From: Dyadobacter luteus
GTDB taxonomy: Bacteria; Bacteroidota; Bacteroidia; Cytophagales; Spirosomataceae
NCBI RefSeq assembly: GCF_003383615.1
Contig: NZ_QNUL01000007.1
Location: 1 to 64,000 of the forward strand
DNA: 64,000 nt
Reading direction: 5' to 3'
Shown here in pieces: positions 11,651-21,130 of the stretch (the first letter of the stretch is position 1; each line of letters starts with the position of its first letter). The translations under genes and the position numbers were made by a program. The notes beneath the pieces were generated by a model. That model did not search any database. It saw only the letters and a list, made by a program, of their open reading frames with translations, and was not told the DNA's origin.

Positions 11651-12604
11651 TTACTTATTGATAAAACGGTCGTCGGTGAGTGCTTCCAGGAAAGCGACAA
11701 TATCATTCATTTCAGGATCAGTAAGGTTGAGCGATGCGCCCAGCGATAAGTCGCGGTTGATGCTGTTGCTGACAAACTTATCAGGTGTGTTGTAATAAGA
11801 TACCACTTCCTTCAATGTCTTGAACATGGCATTATGCATGTATGGCGCAGTGACTGCTACATTTCTCAAACCAGGAACTTTAAAAAGGCCGATATGTGAA
11901 CTGTCTTTGGTAATCGTGAAACGTCCTGCATCAGCCAGTTCAGCTCCGTTGAACAGACCTATATTCTTAAAACGGTCCGCCGTAAAGTCTTCGCCTGAAT
12001 GACAGGTAGCGCAATTGGCTTTACCGATAAATAGTATACGTCCACGTTTGGCTGCAGGCGTCAGGGCATCTTCATTGCCATCCAGAAAGCGATCATAAGG
12101 CGTATTGGTTGTTTCCAGCGTTCTTTCAAAAGAAGCAATTGCCTTCTGAAGATTTCGCGCATTTACTTCAGCCTTGAATATTTTTTGAAATGCGGCGCTG
12201 TAAAAGTCATTCTTCTTAAGTCTCTCTACCGCTTGTTCAATCGGCAAATCCATTTCGTCATGTGCAGCAAGCGGCCCAAGTACCTGATCTTCCAATGAGC
12301 CTGACCTGCCATCCCAGAAAAAATCTGTACGTCCCGATAAGTTGGTCAATGCCGGACTGTTGCGCGGCAACTTCGTGCCTTTATCCCCTATACTGAAAGC
12401 GGCTGTGTCAGCAAATGCAAATGCCGGAATGTGGCAGGACGCGCAACTGATCGCCTGACCTTTGGACAGTATCGGGTCAAAAAAAAGCCGTTCACCCAGG
12501 TCTTCTTTGGTATCTACTTCTTTGTCCTGCATCTGAAACCCGACTACCGTTGTAAACAGACAGAGCGTCAGCAGAATCACGAAGGTTTTTCTGATCTTTT
12601 CCAT
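11651..12604 (-). CDS. Di-haem cytochrome c peroxidase/MauG-family protein
   Basis: The 317-residue protein has two covalent haem c sites, CASCH at residues 54-58 and CATCH at 198-202, the spacing of bacterial di-haem peroxidases and MauG. A hydrophobic N-terminal segment (about 6-24) exports it to the periplasm. The late PGLRNVAVTAPYMHN block is the usual distal-site region with the axial Met/Tyr candidates. Such proteins reduce hydrogen peroxide with electrons from cytochromes or oxidise protein side chains. It is the last gene of an operon with two other exported redox proteins, 11 bases after the DsbD alpha-like gene. Its role in that set is inferred to be peroxide defence or protein maturation. 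Confidence 0.92.
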   Translation of the reverse strand: MEKIRKTFVILLTLCLFTTVVGFQMQDKEVDTKEDLGERLFFDPILSKGQAISCASCHIPAFAFADTAAFSIGDKGTKLPRNSPALTNLSGRTDFFWDGRSGSLEDQVLGPLAAHDEMDLPIEQAVERLKKNDFYSAAFQKIFKAEVNARNLQKAIASFERTLETTNTPYDRFLDGNEDALTPAAKRGRILFIGKANCATCHSGEDFTADRFKNIGLFNGAELADAGRFTITKDSSHIGLFKVPGLRNVAVTAPYMHNAMFKTLKEVVSYYNTPDKFVSNSINRDLSLGASLNLTDPEMNDIVAFLEALTDDRFINK

Positions 12605-12615
12605 TCTCTTCTATT

Positions 12616-13071
12616 TCAATTGACCTGAAAAGATTCCTGAAATGGGATACAAAGCCCGTCTACATTGCTGCAAAGCAGTCCTTTGATAGTGCCCTTGACA
12701 ACATAGCCAGTATTATTCACCTTTATTTTCTGACGAAACTCCCCTTTATCCTGAAAATAAGTATAAGCAACTTCCCAGGTTGGATCCACCGTTTTTTTGG
12801 GATTAACAGCATTTACATCTCCGACAATGCGGAAGGAATCGGCTGTATCAATCTTAAACTCTGTTGGCAACGGACCAATGTCATTTTTAAAATCTGACGA
12901 ATAGAGCTTCCAGTTTTTTTCTATGCTAGCCGAGAAGATAAGCTCTACCTCATCACCTGCTTTGGCATTTTTATTTGAAACAGATACATTCCATTTGGCA
13001 ATGTCCTCCGCCTCTTGTGCGTGTAGTGTGAAAGAAATCAGTACAAAAAAAAGAAGAAGTCTGGTTATCAT
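12616..13071 (-). CDS. Exported DsbD alpha-domain (DsbC-interacting) protein
   Basis: This 151-residue protein has a signal peptide (about 1-18, ending LHAQ) and then the immunoglobulin-like fold of the DsbD N-terminal domain: W-N-V-S-V strands, KAGDEVELIF, and the closing GTIKGLLCSNVDGLCIPFQESF, which holds the two cysteines of the redox pair. Full DsbD adds a membrane transporter and a thioredoxin domain, both missing, so this is a stand-alone shuttle domain. It lies between the TlpA-like and MauG-like genes and probably passes electrons between periplasmic thiol proteins. The partner transmembrane DsbD is not in the window. Confidence 0.85.
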   Translation of the reverse strand: MITRLLLFFVLISFTLHAQEAEDIAKWNVSVSNKNAKAGDEVELIFSASIEKNWKLYSSDFKNDIGPLPTEFKIDTADSFRIVGDVNAVNPKKTVDPTWEVAYTYFQDKGEFRQKIKVNNTGYVVKGTIKGLLCSNVDGLCIPFQESFQVN

Positions 13072-13180
13072 AAAATATCAGATTGACAGGAAGCTGCGCA
13101 AGTTTAGATTAAACAACTACAGGGCGCATGACATTCGCCCTGCAGTTGTCCCAAACTACCTTGTTACTTAACCCACCTTG

Positions 13181-14491
13181 TTATTTGGAGTTCTTTACTG
13201 ATTTGCTGTTGGAAGCAGCAAATGATGCCGGAACAGGCTCAGCGATCAGCGCGTCGAGATCCTTGTTCCATTTTTTAACGTACTCAGTGAAGTAATCACC
13301 GGTAATCTCCCCTGTGTAGCCTGTGTGAATCTGGCGTACATCTCCTTTTCTGTCAATAATAATCGTTGTCGGGAAAGCCATCATACGGTTCAAAGCAGGC
13401 AATTTTTCTGACGCTACTTTTTTATCCGCAATACCACCGAACAAGATATCATACTCGATACCATATTTCTTTTTCAGCGTTCCCAGCGTGTATTTCGCAT
13501 AAGCCAGGTCATCTTTTTGCTCAAAACCAATGGCAATCGCTTCTACTCCACGCTCTTTGTTGGCCTTATACCACGGAGCCAGGAAGGTCGTCTGATCGGT
13601 GCAGTTAGGGCACCATGTTCCGATGATTTCTACAATCACTACTTTGCCTTTGTATTTGTCGTTGCTCAACGATACATTTTTACCGTCCAGATCAGGTAAA
13701 GTGAAATCCAGTTTACTATAACCTTCTTTCAGGAAAGTTAGCTTGTAAGGATCCGGCAATGCAGCCTGTGCATTTTTGTTTCCTTCAAATTTCGTATTGT
13801 CATAGATTCCGGAGCTGATCACACCAGTGATAGAACCATCTTCATTGATTTTACCTTTATAAACCCTGGGGTTTGGTCCTGAGAAGTGAGAAAGTACAAA
13901 CTCATCACCCTGTACCACACCTTCCAGCTCGCGGCTGTCGCCCACTGTCGACATCACCACACCTGTCAGCTTATTACCTTCCTGTTTCAGGATAGCAATG
14001 TTGTCAGGCATTTTTGCCTTGCTATACACGGCCAGATCCCATTTTCCGGATAAATTATGTTTGGTAGGTTGTTCCTTACCTTTTTCTACAAATCTGTAGT
14101 CTTTACCATGTTCTGCCGAAAACGGAAGTGCGCTTCCACGGAAACCCGGAACCAGACTTCTGTATTCTCCCGTAATCTTCCCGTCCGACTCCACATTGGC
14201 TACCAACGCAGCATCATAGGTATTCATCTTCACGAAGATCGAATCTCCGCTCAACTTGGTCACTTTGAAATCATCGCGTCTTGTACCGTTCAGTAACGTC
14301 AAAACCGGATGCTCTTTGTCTTTGTTGTTATACTCAAAATTGAAAGGGATTCTGGTTTCGCTGATCACGAACTCCCCTCTCCAAATACCCTGCTTCGGAG
14401 ATTTACCGGCTGAATGGTCGTCGGCGAAGGCGAAGCTGCTCAAAAACGTGGCCCCTGCTAACGCCACAGACTTGATCTGGTTGATTTTCAT
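13181..14491 (-). CDS. TlpA/ResA-like exported thioredoxin with N-terminal beta domain
   Basis: The 436-residue protein starts at 14491 with a signal peptide (MKINQIKSVALAGATFLSSF, cleavage near 23). Residues about 30-250 form a beta-rich domain of the kind found before Bacteroidota TlpA-type thioredoxins. The thioredoxin domain from about 260 contains GTWCPNC, with active-site cysteines 294 and 297, and a cis-Pro loop FPTTIIIDRKG. It should reduce disulfides in the periplasm, as ResA/TlpA do for cytochrome c maturation, which fits the di-haem protein in the same operon. A longer frame to 14578 adds residues unlike a signal peptide. A promoter lies at 14652-14682. Confidence 0.9.
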   Translation of the reverse strand: MKINQIKSVALAGATFLSSFAFADDHSAGKSPKQGIWRGEFVISETRIPFNFEYNNKDKEHPVLTLLNGTRRDDFKVTKLSGDSIFVKMNTYDAALVANVESDGKITGEYRSLVPGFRGSALPFSAEHGKDYRFVEKGKEQPTKHNLSGKWDLAVYSKAKMPDNIAILKQEGNKLTGVVMSTVGDSRELEGVVQGDEFVLSHFSGPNPRVYKGKINEDGSITGVISSGIYDNTKFEGNKNAQAALPDPYKLTFLKEGYSKLDFTLPDLDGKNVSLSNDKYKGKVVIVEIIGTWCPNCTDQTTFLAPWYKANKERGVEAIAIGFEQKDDLAYAKYTLGTLKKKYGIEYDILFGGIADKKVASEKLPALNRMMAFPTTIIIDRKGDVRQIHTGYTGEITGDYFTEYVKKWNKDLDALIAEPVPASFAASNSKSVKNSK

Positions 14492-14651
14492 ACAAGTTGA
14501 TTTTGAAAAGATTATAAAAAAGATTGACAATATTCCTTCCGGAAGAACTTCCGAAACATTTACTCGCACCAGGGACATTTGCAGGATTTCCCCCGGTTAT
14601 TCAGGGCTTCATGATAAACTCAGCGTGGCTGTATTATCCTAAAACCTGAGG

Positions 14652-14774: not shown

Positions 14775-14850
14775 CAACCCGACACACGACTACCGATTTC
14801 GTCCTGAAAAAATGCGTGTGAAGAATTCAATCCTTATTACTCAAATTATC

Positions 14851-16164
14851 ATGTCTGAAAAAGTGACCAACGGGCTTTCCTCGCCATGGAAAGCTTATGA
14901 AAAAATTGCCGTACGCGCAGCCCTGGTGTATGCTGTCGTAAGCACGATCCCCTTCAACCCGGAGTTCTACAGCCAAAACTTCGACGCCGGATTCAATGTT
15001 AATTCCTACCCGTTCCGCTGGCTGGATGTGGTTTCTCAAAACAAACCCTGGTTTTTTGCAAGCCAGGAAGGAAAGAACTATACGGGCTGGTTTATTACTG
15101 TGCTGATATGTATTGCTGCAGGTTTTGCATGGCAACAAATTGATAAGAAACGGAGAAATGACGAAACCGTTTATTATTGGTTTTATACCGCAGCCCGCTA
15201 CGGCGTGGCGTTGAGGATGTCGTGGTTTGCCTGGGCGAAAGTATTTCCTGTACAAATGCCCTTTCCGACGATCAGTCAGCTGAATACCAATCTGGGAGAC
15301 TTCACGCCTGGAAAGTTGTACTGGCTTACGACAGGCGTATCTCCTTTTTTTGAAGTTTTTGCAGGTATATTCGAGCTTGTGGCCACGCTGCTTTTGCTTT
15401 ATCGACGCACTACAACTTTGGGAGCGTTTATGATGATTGCTATTCTCTTACCAATCTGGTTTGTGAATATTGGTTATAACGCGGGTGTGGAACTCACCAG
15501 TCTGCATTTGCTGAGCCTTTCACTTCTGTTACTGGTCAGAGATGCGGGTAAATATTATCAGATCATTATTGAATACAAAGCAGTTGCGCTCACCTACGTT
15601 CAGCAATTTGAACTACCTGCTACCTGGTACAAATACACCAGACTCGCATTGAAATACGGGTTCATATTCCTGTTCGTAATCTACCGTGGTTTTGGTTACG
15701 GGAATCTGTATGCGAGTGGAAAATCATTCAAGCTTCCACTTGCTGATGGGCTCCCGGGTATCAGTGGATTTTACAAGGTATCTGAGTTTAAGCTGAATGA
15801 CCGGTTTATTCCTGAAGCCATCGGCGACACCACAAGGTGGCAAAATGTAGTATTCGAAAAATTCAATTCAATTAGTATTCAGCTTGACAAACCTTTTAAG
15901 CTCAATACTAAAAATTCCATCCGTACCACAGAGTATTACGGGAATATTGGCCGCCATTACTATGGTTACCAGGCGGATACTATTAACAAAGTATTCAAAC
16001 TCAAAAATCGCGCTGACAGCACAGTACAACTAACCCTTAGGTACGAATTGCACGATACAGGGCAGTTTCTCCTGTCTGGTGTAAATGAAAACCGTGACTC
16101 TATTTTTGTTGTTTTAAATAAAATTGAAAAGAAATATCCACTGGAACAGAAAAGAGAATGGTGA
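14851..16164 (+). CDS. DoxX-like polytopic membrane protein
   Basis: The 437-residue protein starts best at the ATG of MSEKVTNGL (14851); the frame also has an upstream ATG at 14812. Hydrophobic helices are spread over about residues 20-40, 75-95, 110-130, 155-180 (including a GVSPFFEVFAGIFELVATLL helix), 190-210, 220-240 and 270-290. The pattern and the FAWAKVFPVQMP-type loop resemble DoxX/SURF4-like proteins, which associate with thiol redox or quinone processes. The C-terminal 140 residues are soluble and beta-rich. It diverges from the TlpA redox operon, which suggests a related envelope redox function, but no substrate can be named. Confidence 0.7.
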   Translation: MSEKVTNGLSSPWKAYEKIAVRAALVYAVVSTIPFNPEFYSQNFDAGFNVNSYPFRWLDVVSQNKPWFFASQEGKNYTGWFITVLICIAAGFAWQQIDKKRRNDETVYYWFYTAARYGVALRMSWFAWAKVFPVQMPFPTISQLNTNLGDFTPGKLYWLTTGVSPFFEVFAGIFELVATLLLLYRRTTTLGAFMMIAILLPIWFVNIGYNAGVELTSLHLLSLSLLLLVRDAGKYYQIIIEYKAVALTYVQQFELPATWYKYTRLALKYGFIFLFVIYRGFGYGNLYASGKSFKLPLADGLPGISGFYKVSEFKLNDRFIPEAIGDTTRWQNVVFEKFNSISIQLDKPFKLNTKNSIRTTEYYGNIGRHYYGYQADTINKVFKLKNRADSTVQLTLRYELHDTGQFLLSGVNENRDSIFVVLNKIEKKYPLEQKREW

Positions 16165-16224: not shown

Positions 16225-16257
16225 TTTGACAATCCAGAATTCTTGCACTTACCTTTG
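16225..16257 (+). promoter_or_regulatory. Promoter of the SAM-riboswitch leader transcript
   Basis: TTTG (16225-16228) followed, 21 bases after the TTG, by TACCTTTG (16250-16257). Transcription would start near 16264, just upstream of the riboswitch. Confidence 0.7.
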
Positions 16258-16290
16258 CAACGTCTTACAATTACTACCTGCGAAGTAAGC

Positions 16291-16395
16291 GTGGATTTAT
16301 AAAGAAAGAGGGAGAGACAGGCTCGTTGAACTCTTAGCAACTTTCCAGGGCGGAATAAGTGCTAACCTGCCTAATTTTAGGAACTATAAATTTAC
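16291..16395 (+). promoter_or_regulatory. SAM-I-family riboswitch
   Basis: The region folds as the four-helix SAM-I aptamer. P1 pairs 16291-16301 with 16385-16395 (11 pairs, two G-U). The AAGAAAG strand leads into P2, where GGGAGAGAC..GGCTC..GTTGAACTCTTAGCAAC carries the conserved GA-rich/GAA and AGCAAC features. P3 pairs TTAGC-CTT-TCC with GGA-AAG-GCTAA (16334-16365) and includes the signature GTGCTAAC. P4 is CCTAA-TT-TTAGG (16370-16381). This class senses S-adenosylmethionine, usually shutting down methionine or cysteine related genes when SAM is abundant. Here it ends 6 bases before a small cysteine-rich ORF, and a terminator follows 120 bases later. Covariance-model scoring was not possible here. 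Confidence 0.85.
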
Positions 16396-16401
16396 AAAAT
16401 C

Positions 16402-16491
16402 ATGTACAACAACTTTTGTTCAACTCGTCCTGTTTTATGTCGTTCTAACAGCAAAGGGAAATGCTGCCCTAACGATAAGTGGCGAAGCTAA
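16402..16491 (+). CDS. 29-residue cysteine-rich leader peptide/small protein
   Basis: An ATG six bases after the riboswitch P1 helix opens a 29-codon frame containing four cysteines at positions 6, 13, 21 and 22 (with FCSTRP, LCRS, GKCCPNDKWRS). It ends 24 bases before a rho-independent terminator. The position right behind a SAM riboswitch and before a terminator suggests either a leader peptide whose cysteine codons sense cysteine supply, or a small protein directly regulated by SAM. No clear antiterminator pairing with the ORF was found. I do not recognise a named family. Confidence 0.65.
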   Translation: MYNNFCSTRPVLCRSNSKGKCCPNDKWRS

Positions 16492-16513
16492 TTGCAAGCT
16501 CATAGAGCAACAA

Positions 16514-16549
16514 TCCCGGTCGGGGTTATCTGATCCTGACCGGATTTTT
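16514..16549 (+). terminator. Terminator after the cysteine-rich leader ORF
   Basis: CCGGTCGGG (16516-16524) pairs with CCTGACCGG (16535-16543), one wobble, followed by TTTTT. It separates the riboswitch/leader unit from yceI, 53 bases before the yceI start, so readthrough would be needed to express downstream genes from the leader promoter. Confidence 0.8.
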
Positions 16550-16602
16550 AAAATTTACTAGTCTATAAAATCAATAGAATTAATATATTAAATAAAAATA
16601 AC

Positions 16603-17241
16603 ATGAAAAAGATACTTATCCCCATTCTTTCACTGACCGCTTTCGGTCTGGTTTCATTTACAAATCCATCGGATAAAACCGCAAAAGAAGCTTCTTACGC
16701 TGTGGACGCGAAACAAAGTAAGCTGGTATGGCACGCTAAAAAAGTAACCGGTGAGCATTCAGGAACGGCGCCGATCAAGCAGGGATCGCTCATCTTGAAC
16801 GACGGAAAGTTGAAAGGTGGCAACTTTGAAATCAGTCTGAAAGACCTTACGGTGACGGATATCACCGATCCAGAATACAACGCAAAATTGGTAGGACACC
16901 TCAAAAACGATGACTTCTTCGCCGTTGACAAACACCCTGTTGCAAAACTACAAATCGTATCTGCGACACCTTCCGGAGCCAACAAATACGATGTAAAAGG
17001 CAAACTGACGATCAAAGGCGTAACCAACGATATCACCTTCCCTGCTGAAGTGACCAGCAATGGTAAAGCGGTAACCGGCAAGGCAAAAATCGCCATTGAC
17101 CGTACCAAATATGATATTAAATACAATTCGAAGAGCGTATTCTCCTCTATCGGAGACAAAGCGATTGATGATGTATTCAATCTTGATATATCGCTGGTAG
17201 CGGCAGAAACAGCAACTACCGCCAAAGCGAAAACCAAATAA
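16603..17241 (+). CDS. YceI-family exported lipid-binding protein
   Basis: The 212-residue protein has an N-terminal signal segment and a YceI lipocalin-like barrel (about 30-200): YAVDAKQSKLVWHAKKVTG, KGGNFEISLKDLTV, LKNDDFFAVDKHP, KGKLTIKGVTNDITFP and the late FDRT-like IDRTKYDIKYNSKS. The family binds polyisoprenoid-type lipids in the periplasm and often accompanies cytochrome or quinone functions. The tail is Ala/Lys/Thr-rich. It lies behind the riboswitch, leader ORF and terminator, so it may be expressed only on readthrough or from a promoter I did not find. The function here is otherwise open. Confidence 0.92.
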   Translation: MKKILIPILSLTAFGLVSFTNPSDKTAKEASYAVDAKQSKLVWHAKKVTGEHSGTAPIKQGSLILNDGKLKGGNFEISLKDLTVTDITDPEYNAKLVGHLKNDDFFAVDKHPVAKLQIVSATPSGANKYDVKGKLTIKGVTNDITFPAEVTSNGKAVTGKAKIAIDRTKYDIKYNSKSVFSSIGDKAIDDVFNLDISLVAAETATTAKAKTK

Positions 17242-17255
17242 TTACACCTCCAATC

Positions 17256-17387
17256 CTGATTTGATGATGTGCAGGCGAAGTAGCTAACACTACACTTTTT
17301 ATTTCAACAGCAGAAAGCGACAGGAACTGCAGGCTCCCCAGTCCTTTGTAAAGTTGCTCTAAGAGTGCCCGTGCATCATCAAATCAG
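17256..17387 (+). other. Candidate structured RNA element of unknown class
   Basis: CTGATTTGATGATG (17256-17269) is perfectly complementary to 17374-17387; three more pairs, two of them G-U, extend the helix inward to 17272/17371. The wobble pairs hold on the plus-strand RNA only. The enclosed 98 bases can form AAGTAG/CTACACTT (17278-17298) and GGAACTG/CAGTCC (about 17323-17344) hairpins. A long closing helix over a multi-hairpin core is the layout of riboswitch-like leaders. It lies between yceI and the TonB-dependent receptor. No U-run follows, so it is not a simple terminator. I could not match it to a known class. Confidence 0.45.
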
Positions 17388-17544: not shown

Positions 17545-20298
17545 ATGAAAAACTATTTTTTACTCCTTTTACTTTTTATCTCCACTGCCACGCTCGCCCA
17601 GCAACGCATTATCACGGGTCGGGTTACGGCCTCCGAAAACGGCGAGCCATTACCGGGAGTGAACATCACCATCAAAAATACACGCCAGGGCACCATCACC
17701 GACGGCGACGGAAAATTCACACTGACTGTCGTAAAAGGCGAGACTTTGATTTTCTCCTTCATCGGTTTTCTGGCAAAGGAAGTGCCTATTCATGCTTCCA
17801 ATGAATACAATGTGGCACTTCAGACAAGTACGCACACATTGGGCGAAGTACAGGTTGTAGGCTCACGCAATGCGAACCGCACCAAACTGGATTCTCCCGT
17901 TCCGGTGGATGTAATTGATTTGAAACCACTTCTGGAATCCGCACCGCAGGTGAGTATCACACAACTTTTACAATACGTATCACCTTCTTTCCATTCAGTA
18001 AACGGAAGTAATGCCGGAGATGCGGGCTCTGCGCTGAACCTTTCTCAACTCAGAGGATTGGGAGTGGATCAGGTGCTGGTACTTGTAAATGGCAAGCGTC
18101 GCCACAAAAGCTCTAATATTAACTGGGGAGGATTGGGTAATGGCGCGACGGGCTATGACCTGAATTCCATTCCAACCGCCGCTATTGAAAGAGTTGAAAT
18201 CCTGAGAGACGGAGCTGCCGCTCAATATGGCTCTGATGCGATTGCCGGGGTAATCAATATTGTATTGAACAAAAGCACTGAGCAACTTACCATCAGTTCT
18301 ACGGCCAGTACACGTCGTCGCGGTGATGGTACCACCACTCGTACGAATGCCAACTATGGTTTTGCGTTAGGAAAAACAGGAGGTTATCTCAACACTACAG
18401 CTGAATTTGCTACGCAGGCTATCGCGCTTTTACCAGGTAATGACGATGCCGGATTATACCTGGGACCAGTGTACGGAGGCGGTGCGAATACCCGTAATTA
18501 CGATGCTATATACACCAAAGAAATTGACGAAGCGATTCTGGCGAGCAGAGGTATTGACCGCCATTTTTTTGACCGTCGCGCAGGTGGTTCCAACAAGGCT
18601 AAGGATGCACTTTTGTTCTTCAATGCAGCCATTCCATTGAGACAAAATGCAGAGGTGTATGCTTTCGGAGGGATCAGTCATCGTAACTCGCAATTTACAG
18701 CAGTATACCGTCTGCCGGGCTGGACAGAGCGTAACAACTCATTCCTCTACCCCGACGGCTTCCTGCCTGCCATGGAAAACATCATTTCTGATAAATCGCT
18801 GGCGGTAGGTATCAAAGGTAAAATCCGTGACTGGGATGTAGATATTTCCAATGTTTACGGGAAAAACGATTTTGGCAACGTGATTACCAATTCTCTGAAT
18901 GCAAGTTTGGGTTTGAAAACGCCGAGGACATTCGATGCAGGGAGCTACAATGCCAGCCAGAATACAGGAAGTATCGACATCAGCCGCTATTTTGACAAAG
19001 TATTGAAAGGGATCAACGTAGCATTCGGAGCGCAGTACCGTGTTGAAACGTATCAGATCATTGCAGGGGAATCGGCCTCCTATTCCAAAGGAGATTTGAG
19101 AACCGTATGGGGATTGGATACAACAGCAACCGGTATTATTTACAATACCAATGAAGGACAAATCGGATTGAACGGACTTTCTCCGGGTTCTCAAATTCAC
19201 GCAGGCTTTCGTCCTGAAAATGCTGTGAACGTAAACCGCTCGATCCTGGCCGGCTACGTAGATGTGGAAGCAAATATTACTCAAAACTGGCTGGTATCCG
19301 GCGCCTTACGACTTGAAAATTTCTCCGGGCTGGGTAACGTAACGACCTACAAAATTGCAACCAAGTTCAATATTTCGGATCGTCTGGGTCTGCGCGGATC
19401 ACATAATACGGGTTTCCGTGCTCCTGACCTTGCCCAGTATTATTATACTGAAACTTCAACCAGTTTTCAGCAGGGCCGCGCTATCGACCAGGTCACTGCC
19501 TCCAACCAAAGTGCCGCTACCCGTGCACTCGGTTTCCCAACACTTACACCTGAAAAATCAAAAGGTTATACACTAGGAATCACCACGCAGCCTTTCAGAA
19601 ACTTTGAACTGACTGCAGACGCATATCTGGTAGATGTAAACAACCGTGTGGGAAACACAGGAAATTTCTCGGCAACGGATGTGAACCTGCCACTAGAAGT
19701 GCGTAATCTTTTTGTACAGACAGGAACAACGCAGGCCAAATTCTTCTATAACTCATTCAGTACAAGAACGAAAGGATTGGAGATTACTGGTAGCTACCGT
19801 ACACCATTCAGAGGCGGCGCACTGAACCTGTTGTTGGGAGCCAATTTTGTAAGAAATGAAGTAACCAGCGTGAACACACCGGCAGGACTGGAAGCTTACC
19901 GCTATATCATTTTCAACGACGGTGAAAAAGCGCGGGTAACTTCGCACATTCCTGGTCAGAAGATTAATGTACAGGGAACTTACAAACTTGGAAAACTGAC
20001 CTATATGGCACGTGCTATTTATTTCGGCTCCGTAACGACAGCTTCAGCCTTGAATGCAAATTTCCCTCAGCCCGATTATTTCTACCAGAAACTGAAACCT
20101 ATCTGGGTTGTGGATGCGTCAGTAGCTTATTCGTTCACAAAGTCGCTGCAAGGTGTAATTGGTGTAAACAATGCTTTCAACCAATTGGGCGACTATACCG
20201 ATCCTTCTCTGAATCCACGTAACAATCCTTCAATCATAGGCTTGCAGAACGGCAGCGCGGGAATTCAGCCTTTCATTCGTATCACCGCTAAACTTTAA
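17545..20298 (+). CDS. TonB-dependent outer-membrane receptor
   Basis: This 917-residue receptor has a signal peptide (1-19, ending TLAQ), a carboxypeptidase-like regulatory domain (about 20-105: ITGRVTASENGEPLPGVNIT), a plug (about 115-235) with ERVEILRDGAAAQYGSDAIAG and INIVLNKS, and a beta barrel to a terminal FIRITAKL strand. It imports an unknown ligand through the outer membrane with TonB energy. It is a classical TonB-dependent receptor, not SusC: it lacks the SusC-specific extended N-terminal signatures and has no SusD partner. A DUF4397 lipoprotein follows 25 bases later. The SAM riboswitch upstream suggests, but does not prove, a sulfur-related ligand. Confidence 0.93.
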   Translation: MKNYFLLLLLFISTATLAQQRIITGRVTASENGEPLPGVNITIKNTRQGTITDGDGKFTLTVVKGETLIFSFIGFLAKEVPIHASNEYNVALQTSTHTLGEVQVVGSRNANRTKLDSPVPVDVIDLKPLLESAPQVSITQLLQYVSPSFHSVNGSNAGDAGSALNLSQLRGLGVDQVLVLVNGKRRHKSSNINWGGLGNGATGYDLNSIPTAAIERVEILRDGAAAQYGSDAIAGVINIVLNKSTEQLTISSTASTRRRGDGTTTRTNANYGFALGKTGGYLNTTAEFATQAIALLPGNDDAGLYLGPVYGGGANTRNYDAIYTKEIDEAILASRGIDRHFFDRRAGGSNKAKDALLFFNAAIPLRQNAEVYAFGGISHRNSQFTAVYRLPGWTERNNSFLYPDGFLPAMENIISDKSLAVGIKGKIRDWDVDISNVYGKNDFGNVITNSLNASLGLKTPRTFDAGSYNASQNTGSIDISRYFDKVLKGINVAFGAQYRVETYQIIAGESASYSKGDLRTVWGLDTTATGIIYNTNEGQIGLNGLSPGSQIHAGFRPENAVNVNRSILAGYVDVEANITQNWLVSGALRLENFSGLGNVTTYKIATKFNISDRLGLRGSHNTGFRAPDLAQYYYTETSTSFQQGRAIDQVTASNQSAATRALGFPTLTPEKSKGYTLGITTQPFRNFELTADAYLVDVNNRVGNTGNFSATDVNLPLEVRNLFVQTGTTQAKFFYNSFSTRTKGLEITGSYRTPFRGGALNLLLGANFVRNEVTSVNTPAGLEAYRYIIFNDGEKARVTSHIPGQKINVQGTYKLGKLTYMARAIYFGSVTTASALNANFPQPDYFYQKLKPIWVVDASVAYSFTKSLQGVIGVNNAFNQLGDYTDPSLNPRNNPSIIGLQNGSAGIQPFIRITAKL

Positions 20299-20323: not shown

Positions 20324-21130
20324 ATGAAAATGAATACATTCCAATTATCGAAAAGGATCCAGTCGGTGTTGCTGTTCGTGCTGGGCGCGACTGCCCTAAC
20401 GGGCTGTGAAGACACCTCCTACCTGGACATTGATGCGGCCGACAGACCTCCGCTAAGCGCTTACATTAGTTTTGTAAATGCCCGTCCGGTTAATGCAGGA
20501 ATCAGTTTCTGGACGTTCACAGATAAAATCACTCCAACGCCAGTGGCGATCAACCAGGCTTCTGAATACTACCCGACTGTATTCGGAAGTGTACAGATTA
20601 ACATAACAGAAGGGAATAATACCAGTTATAAAGCATCGTATCAGTTTGGCAACAGCGCTACGTTTTCAGCCACCGGCAGACCGAACGGACCTATCGCCAC
20701 TTTTTACCACACTGTAGTGGCTGCCCGCACCAGCAAAAACAACGCCGATTCACTGATCCTTTTTTATGATGATCTGAAAGCGCCGGATGCAGGTAAAGCT
20801 AAATTACGATTTGTGAATCTCTCACCGGGTGCAGGAACACTGAACGTACTGAAAGATAAAACACCTCTCTTCACCAACGTAGCCTACGGAAGGGCTGCCA
20901 ATTCATCCCTTAGCGGAGAAACACTCAGTGCCTGGTCACTTGGGCCATTCCAAAGTGTGGATCCGGGATCTTACCCACTCAATTTTACCAATGCAACCAA
21001 CGGCAACACTACCGGCAGTACTTCTACTATCACATTGGAAGCAGGTAAAATTTACACCGTCTTCACAAACGGATTGTTACAAGGAACACCGGAGTTCGGC
21101 GTCAAAGTGATCGAACATCCTGTGAAATAG
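20324..21130 (+). CDS. DUF4397-domain lipoprotein
   Basis: The 268-residue protein has a lipobox LTGC with lipidated Cys28, so it is anchored in the envelope. The body contains two repeats of the DUF4397 type: YISFVNARPVNAGISFW early and LRFVNLSPGAGTLNVLKDKT later, ending in AGKIYTVFTNGLLQGTPEF. DUF4397 proteins are cell-surface beta proteins with no firm function. It follows the receptor by 25 bases and is closed by a terminator, so the two probably form an operon and may act together in ligand capture, as SusD does for SusC. Confidence 0.85.
   Translation: MKMNTFQLSKRIQSVLLFVLGATALTGCEDTSYLDIDAADRPPLSAYISFVNARPVNAGISFWTFTDKITPTPVAINQASEYYPTVFGSVQINITEGNNTSYKASYQFGNSATFSATGRPNGPIATFYHTVVAARTSKNNADSLILFYDDLKAPDAGKAKLRFVNLSPGAGTLNVLKDKTPLFTNVAYGRAANSSLSGETLSAWSLGPFQSVDPGSYPLNFTNATNGNTTGSTSTITLEAGKIYTVFTNGLLQGTPEFGVKVIEHPVK

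Follow-up and report, generated by a model that had tools for sequence, protein, structure and literature searches.

The window analyzed here is a 64,000 nt stretch of Dyadobacter luteus DNA (contig NZ_QNUL01000007.1, positions 1 to 64,000), in which a promoter, a SAM-I riboswitch, a short ORF with tandem cysteine codons and a terminator lie ahead of genes for a YceI-family protein, a TonB-dependent receptor and a DUF4397 protein. The features of the locus are as follows:

16225..16229 and 16250..16257, forward strand: Bacteroidota-type promoter, TTTGA and TACCTTTG, kept in 19/19 syntenic Dyadobacter loci
16271..16288, forward strand: 5-pair hairpin upstream of the aptamer (fold)
16291..16395, forward strand: SAM-I riboswitch (Rfam match RF00162 and fold)
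16291..16301 paired with 16385..16395, forward strand: P1 helix of the aptamer, 11 pairs as folded
16402..16491, forward strand: leader ORF of 29 codons, MYNNFCSTRPVLCRSNSKGKCCPNDKWRS, with its ATG at 16402; conserved
16462..16467, forward strand: TGC TGC, tandem Cys codons, proposed control codons; Cys-Cys (CC) in 13/13 loci
16516..16549, forward strand: intrinsic terminator, 12-pair stem and T5 (fold and sequence)
16559..16581, forward strand: imperfect palindrome TAGTCTATAAAATCAATAGAATT, possible operator, with matches at 18/19 loci
16603..17241, forward strand: YceI-family gene, nearest downstream (PF04264, 91.5 bits)
17256..17387, forward strand: long hairpin element with apical GGRANTGCAGGCTC, 5' of the TonB receptor gene
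17545..20298, forward strand: TonB-dependent receptor, 917 aa (PF00593, PF07715, PF13715)
20324..21130, forward strand: DUF4397 protein, 3' of the receptor (PF14344)

The two promoter motifs are of the TAnnTTTG type given as the Bacteroidota consensus (PMC9723704), and bear out the promoter proposed in a first-pass annotation that had been made from the letters of the window. The stretch around the small hairpin that follows is similar in several loci, both with and without an aptamer. Divergent from the locus, on the reverse strand at 11651..14578, lie genes for a di-haem cytochrome c peroxidase, a protein with a DsbD N-terminal domain and a redoxin, and these neighbors are kept beside the locus in 12 relatives (the peroxidase was not called in L152). 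At 14812..16164 is the gene for a 450-aa protein without a Pfam match, homologues of which (30–34% identity) adjoin counterparts of this window's SusC/SusD-like pair in two other loci (L136 and L341).

A covariance search of the 64 kb window gave a single match to RF00162 at the gathering threshold, at 16294–16392 on the forward strand, with a score of 71.9 bits (gathering score 44.4, E 7.4e-15) and spanning the full model from 1 to 108. The aptamer stretch folds no better than its shuffles (z -0.39), so its identity as SAM-I comes from the covariance match, which by the model is certain, and SAM binding is predicted. Between 16160 and 17560 no Rfam family besides SAM reached its gathering score, and four more matches with E ≤5 were all far below theirs. 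The SAM aptamer of the first-pass annotation was recovered in this way, the fold gave the 11 pairs it had counted in P1, and its 29-codon ORF with four cysteines was found where expected, with a gap of 6 bases between the end of P1 and the ATG. That start is about 140 nt past the transcription start inferred from the promoter, so the ORF is not leaderless; it has two tandem Cys codons only, with no poly-Cys tract, and the peptide has no match in Pfam. SAM-I riboswitches are generally understood to control enzymes or transporters directly. The aptamer described here resembles the S-box family (RF00162) in being complete and above the family cut-off, but differs in that the first translated product is a leader peptide with Cys codons, and in that the 3' strand of P1 lies within the start region, with no classical antiterminator/terminator pair seen.

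A DNA pattern for the C-terminal motif CCPxDxWR was run on 48 Dyadobacter genomes, with the reversed pattern as a control, and matched at 16 places in 15 genomes, compared to one match for the control. Matches were accepted as the true peptide if they were short, ATG-started frames ending in WRS-stop at this locus, which left 13; the other three (G006, G015 and G040:C7) were dropped because the motif is not at the end of their frames. The peptide is present in 13 of the 48 genomes, always at this one locus and always ending in CCPxDxWRS-stop. Over the last nine codons, pS is 0.84 and pN only 0.12 in the 13 genomes, and the residues C, C, P, D, W, R and S are invariant, with synonymous variation beneath them (both Cys, four Pro, two Asp, four Arg and two Ser codons are used). 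Codons 2–20 are looser (pN/pS 0.35/0.47 in one group and 0.22/0.42 in the other), and in one genome (G032) the peptide is a 14-codon form, MSHQRCCPADAWRS, in which the motif is retained and the N-terminal half is gone. Judged by these substitution patterns, the leader peptide is under selection; the first-pass annotation had staked its reading on conservation of the frame and cysteines in relatives, and both the frame and the cysteines at the C-terminus are indeed kept there.

In a sample of 390 genomes from the order, the pattern matched in 17 genomes, 4 of them Dyadobacter, and among the 368 genomes outside Dyadobacter none of the 13 matches was a short frame ending in WRS-stop. A collection of named genomes gave 32 matching stretches, 9 from Dyadobacter and 23 from others. 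All of these 23 underlie a frame of 245–630 codons that is read otherwise, and ten of them end in WRS-stop (among these L130 is ATG-started with 16 codons, and L107 and L119 start with GTG); in view of the longer overlapping frames, the 23 were taken as by-products that probably lie inside larger genes. The search for the same peptide behind SAM riboswitches of other Bacteroidota, as proposed in the first-pass annotation, was successful within Dyadobacter, where SAM-I precedes the peptide in six genomes, and gave no true match in the 368 genomes from other genera.

The aptamer core is absent in the remaining seven of the 13 peptide genomes, four of which still have the 5' strand of P1, GATTTATA. 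Orthologues of the TonB receptor (at least 83% identity) occur in 19 of the 48 genomes, and all 13 peptide genomes are nested within these 19. The other six have neither aptamer nor peptide, but in all six the promoter and, ahead of the receptor, the hairpin element are retained; the palindrome box is in matching form in five of them and divergent in G008, and in G002 it comes directly after the promoter. The YceI gene is missing from this position in several relatives. Since the promoter is kept before the downstream genes in six genomes without riboswitch and ORF, these two elements are better described as a leader than as a separate gene, and the promoter appears, from this comparison, to serve the YceI and receptor genes downstream of the leader. 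The same six genomes speak against the first-pass view of a compact unit that is self-contained and has a terminator to itself, and the reading as a self-contained gene was not favored. Nor is it likely that the riboswitch controls a small thiol or metal-binding protein acting in trans, with the terminator ending its own mRNA, although the first-pass annotation had also raised a small thiol protein: this would account for the conservation at the peptide level, where CCPxDxWRS is kept beyond what attenuation by codon counting needs, for the strong terminator immediately after the ORF at this locus, and for the peptide being kept in seven genomes without the aptamer, but not for the promoter of the six genomes that lack the ORF, nor for the confinement of the peptide to a single locus in the genus with no true copy outside it, and the repeated finding of Cys leaders ahead of metY-like genes (see later) points to action in cis.

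On a tree of the receptors, rooted at midpoint only, the three states (aptamer and peptide, peptide alone, neither) need 4 changes compared to a mean of 9.4 when shuffled. G008 is the sister of G035 (99/97) among the aptamer genomes, and G002 groups with the seven peptide-only genomes in one clade (100/100), the inner order of which is not resolved. One simple history would start from an ancestor with aptamer and peptide, after which one clade lost the aptamer and three lineages lost the whole leader.

The long hairpin upstream of the receptor has a fold z-score of -4.5, and its apical GGRANTGCAGGCTC is common to all 19 orthologous loci. By eye, its outer stems vary between species yet remain paired, and its loop pattern was found in 6 of 241 genomes of the order sample, the D. 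luteus genome included. From these features it is a candidate cis-regulatory RNA. The palindrome box, 3' of the leader terminator, has a form like TAGTCTAT-N7-ATAGATTA, and with up to two mismatches the D. luteus genome has ten matches at nine places, including this one, compared to none for the reversed control; three of the places are 5' of SusC-type receptor-like genes. That the box is the site of a sulfur or iron–sulfur regulator is a guess. Four loci without SAM-I or peptide (L160, L161, L162 and L166) show, by eye, a similar stretch around GTCCGRTAACCACCTNYCCGGNC between the promoter and the box.

The stem of the leader terminator (12 pairs, 16516–16543) is followed by ATTTTT and folds at -20.8 kcal/mol, where shuffles give -10.0 ± 2.2 (z -5.0), in agreement with the terminator of the first-pass annotation. 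It begins 24 nt beyond the stop codon, and given the usual ribosome footprint, a ribosome at the leader stop would presumably not cover it. In a scan, a hairpin with a T-run was found in only two of the six aptamer loci (G000 and G013), and a strong terminator comparable to that of this locus was found at only one other aptamer locus, G013. Six of the seven peptide loci without aptamer have a weak hairpin and T-run (-2.7 to -6.5 kcal/mol), and at four of the seven (G040, G018, G032 and G011) this extends over the Trp-Arg codons and the stop, where it would be covered by a ribosome finishing the ORF. Across the peptide loci the terminator is poorly conserved, and no antiterminator was seen in the fold of this locus.

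The survey of SAM-I sites in Bacteroidia began with 183 sites, three from the D. luteus genome and the rest from two lists, each contributing 30 loci and 60 further places; both lists were used in part, among the matches listed, with the best scores first in the second. One site at a contig edge (L036) and one caught by a sanity filter (L276) were dropped, leaving 181. Leader ORFs, defined as frames of 10–74 codons with an ATG, GTG or TTG at +5 to +14 from the aptamer end, were found at 78 of the 181 sampled sites, and at 28 of the 181 a short ORF with tandem cysteines begins 7–14 nt after SAM-I; by a hand tally from the site labels, these 28 represent 21 genomes and 12 families. In all 28 the last CC pair is 0–9 codons ahead of the stop, tracts of seven cysteines occur (L046, L049 and L222 are examples), and the sites L057, L224, L233 and L247 of family f12 have a GTG start. 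Two Cys leaders after SAM-I (L288 of family f69 and L303 of f61) lie outside the order of Dyadobacter, and so the arrangement is not confined to that order. CC leaders are absent at 153 of the 181 sites, including both of the other SAM-I sites in the D. luteus genome, and only one of the six Dyadobacter metY leaders surveyed (L051, L056, L232, L234, L242 and L243) has CC.

The position of the start is itself distinctive. Among 72 sites with a TATAA-type 3' strand of P1, 21 have an ATG at +9, compared to 2 of the other 109 sites, and the TATAA-type sites have eight ATGs altogether from +13 to +40. Within leader ORFs, CC was counted 28/4/8 by frame and CCC 17/0/0 (in-frame count first), and a variant restricted to ATG starts at -2 to +17 gave 61 ORFs, with CC by frame 25/4/6. 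Sham anchors placed further downstream gave CC ORFs in 4/32, 4/41, 3/30 and 0/26 cases. Runs of (TGY)3 occur at 18/181 sites, against a shuffle mean of 1.8 (maximum 7 in 200) and 7/181 on the reverse strand, while single CC pairs occur at 47/181, against a shuffle mean of 34.6 and 61 on the reverse strand; the (TGY)3 excess alone is not clean, and the frame test is stronger. Pairing between the Cys tract and downstream RNA did not stand out among the 28 CC leaders (mean z -0.39, below -1.5 in 3/28). Short ORFs are common, and 50 of the 78 counted behind these aptamers lack tandem cysteines, as might be expected if the frame in D. luteus were a functionless one that lies behind the riboswitch by chance; this is most improbable, however, given the codon-level conservation in 13 genomes, the excess of pattern matches over the reversed control and the restriction of CCC to the reading frame.

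Target genes were assigned by short motif expressions for MetY, MetX, MetH and MetB, drawn from no library, which left 47 of the 181 sites without assignment and 5 without a gene, and nine target proteins were compared, along with the peptide, to Pfam. By this crude assignment, CC leaders are found at 16 of 33 metY-like sites and at none of 96 metH, metX-like or metB-like sites (61, 22 and 13, respectively; Fisher p 1.1e-11). At L277 no gene was found by the script, and a metY start was read in the sequence. Other genes behind CC leaders encode PAPS reductase (L233 and L244), a cysteine-desulfurase-like class-V aminotransferase (L252 by Pfam, L266 by the same start sequence), YceI (this locus and L272), TonB-receptor-like proteins (L270 by a Plug domain, L262 by CarboxypepD and similarity to a receptor-like protein of this window) and an amino-acid permease (L057), and at L224 and L247 there is a weak ATP-grasp-like match under the Pfam cut-off. 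YceI proteins with 55% identity to that of this locus are encoded behind SAM-I in L342 and L339, and the leader of L339 (L260) ends in a single Cys. At L226 the MetX-like gene itself begins at +9, using the geometry of the leader ORF directly. MetY takes up sulfide directly, so a response to cysteine would be biochemically reasonable there. For seven pairs of metY leaders, pN/pS ranged from about 0.5 to 1.4 and the Cys codons persisted in several, and such weak constraint fits codon counting in the metY group; the L260/L272 leaders, which precede YceI, are under tighter constraint (0.08/0.27). By its layout, the D. luteus locus would be a member of a Bacteroidota architecture that combines SAM-I with a Cys-codon leader, mostly before metY-like genes.

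On balance, we think it probable, by a little, that 16262–16549 is the 5' leader of a YceI/TonB-receptor/DUF4397 operon, the genes of which would be co-transcribed, and that it reads first SAM and then cysteine by way of the leader peptide. With SAM bound, P1 would close 6 nt before the AUG and keep ribosomes off the leader ORF; at low SAM, the AU-rich 3' strand of the helix would be freed and the ORF translated. The translating ribosome would then reach the tandem Cys codons, 7 codons ahead of the stop, where it may stall or pass slowly, either because Cys-tRNA is scarce or through nascent-chain arrest by the CCPxDxWRS end. Stalling at this point would decide the expression of the uptake genes, and the candidate means are the terminator, Rho, or release of the ribosome-binding site. 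The coupling of SAM sensing to cysteine-dependent attenuation, which had been suggested in the first-pass annotation, gains from the recurrence of the geometry before sulfur and uptake genes and suffers from the poor conservation of the terminator. The occurrence of the peptide without an aptamer in seven genomes means that SAM control is dispensable, and since four of the seven keep the 5' strand of P1, the helix could form permanently there, which fits badly with P1 merely blocking the ORF. In addition, P, D, W, R and S are more conserved than codon counting would require, which suggests a nascent-chain effect, besides codon counting or instead of it.

Taken further, the last point leads to an arrest peptide as such, in which the nascent CCPxDxWRS, right at the stop codon, would halt the ribosome on sensing a ligand (thiol state, a cysteine-bound metal or SAM are candidates) in the manner of CruR, a Cys-containing copper uORF with a conserved C-terminal motif that precedes a TonB-dependent transporter (PMC9426467). 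The invariance of the motif to its final residue in 13/13 loci with pN far below pS, the lesser constraint on codons 2–20, the shortened form in G032, the persistence of the motif without the aptamer, and the position before a TonB receptor as in CruR are all in its favor. Against this are the weak constraint on the seven metY leader pairs and the want of a Pfam match, by which the peptide is not DUF2946, and it has no RAPP or CXXC motif; we regard this explanation as doubtful, though not far-fetched. As described in PMC9426467, CruR has a DUF2946 protein with CXXC and RAPP, responds to copper and involves Rho, with no riboswitch in that account, and the leader peptide studied here has none of these motifs. 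Under the preferred reading, a two-signal leader, an arresting C-terminus would be one of the two means of stalling.

In mycobacteria, short polycysteine ORFs are reportedly leaderless, cysteine-responsive attenuators (work said to be by Canestrari in 2020). They share with the present leader a short Cys-codon ORF before the regulated genes, but here the ORF lies behind SAM-I and has two tandem Cys codons in place of a long tract. In uORFC-8-2, upstream of cysS in Rhodobacterales, an intrinsic terminator likewise comes after two tandem Cys codons, and ribosome-mediated attenuation has been proposed (PMC8632094); this motif, which has a two-stem structure, differs in its phylum and its target (YceI is next here, not cysS), and the account given there includes no aptamer. 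The pairing of a riboswitch with a leader ORF has a parallel in M. tuberculosis, where B12 riboswitches and translated uORFs jointly modulate the downstream gene, with termination-reinitiation named in that account (PMC11260477); the ligand is B12 and not SAM, and the abstract mentions no Cys codons. In Sinorhizobium, the metA SAM-II riboswitch has a terminator between two start codons (PMC9373788), which is similar in outline; however, it is of the SAM-II class, both starts are in frame, and the abstract reports no Cys leader. A search of open-licence literature (few subscription papers and no preprints) found no report of SAM-I with a cysteine leader among the titles and abstract openings listed. 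SAM-I riboswitches and cysteine-responsive short ORFs are known separately, and their combination is apparently new, as far as a search of that breadth can indicate.

More tentatively, and as something possible rather than probable, the comparisons made here may reflect a previously undescribed two-input sulfur gate of Bacteroidota, in which the P1 helix of SAM-I controls translation of a Cys-codon leader, and in which the leader of Dyadobacter became a CCPxDxWRS arrest peptide that has outlived the riboswitch in one clade. The natural series of aptamer with peptide, peptide alone, and neither offers material for testing how such a gate evolves. If it is real, metY, PAPS reductase, cysteine desulfurase and TonB-dependent uptake would answer jointly to SAM and cysteine, and the TonB receptors and YceI proteins concerned, whose substrate is not known, would be expected to have a sulfur-related role. 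Many SAM-I switches of Bacteroidota would then first control a cysteine-reading leader, forming a compact gate with two inputs where cysteine and methionine metabolism branch.
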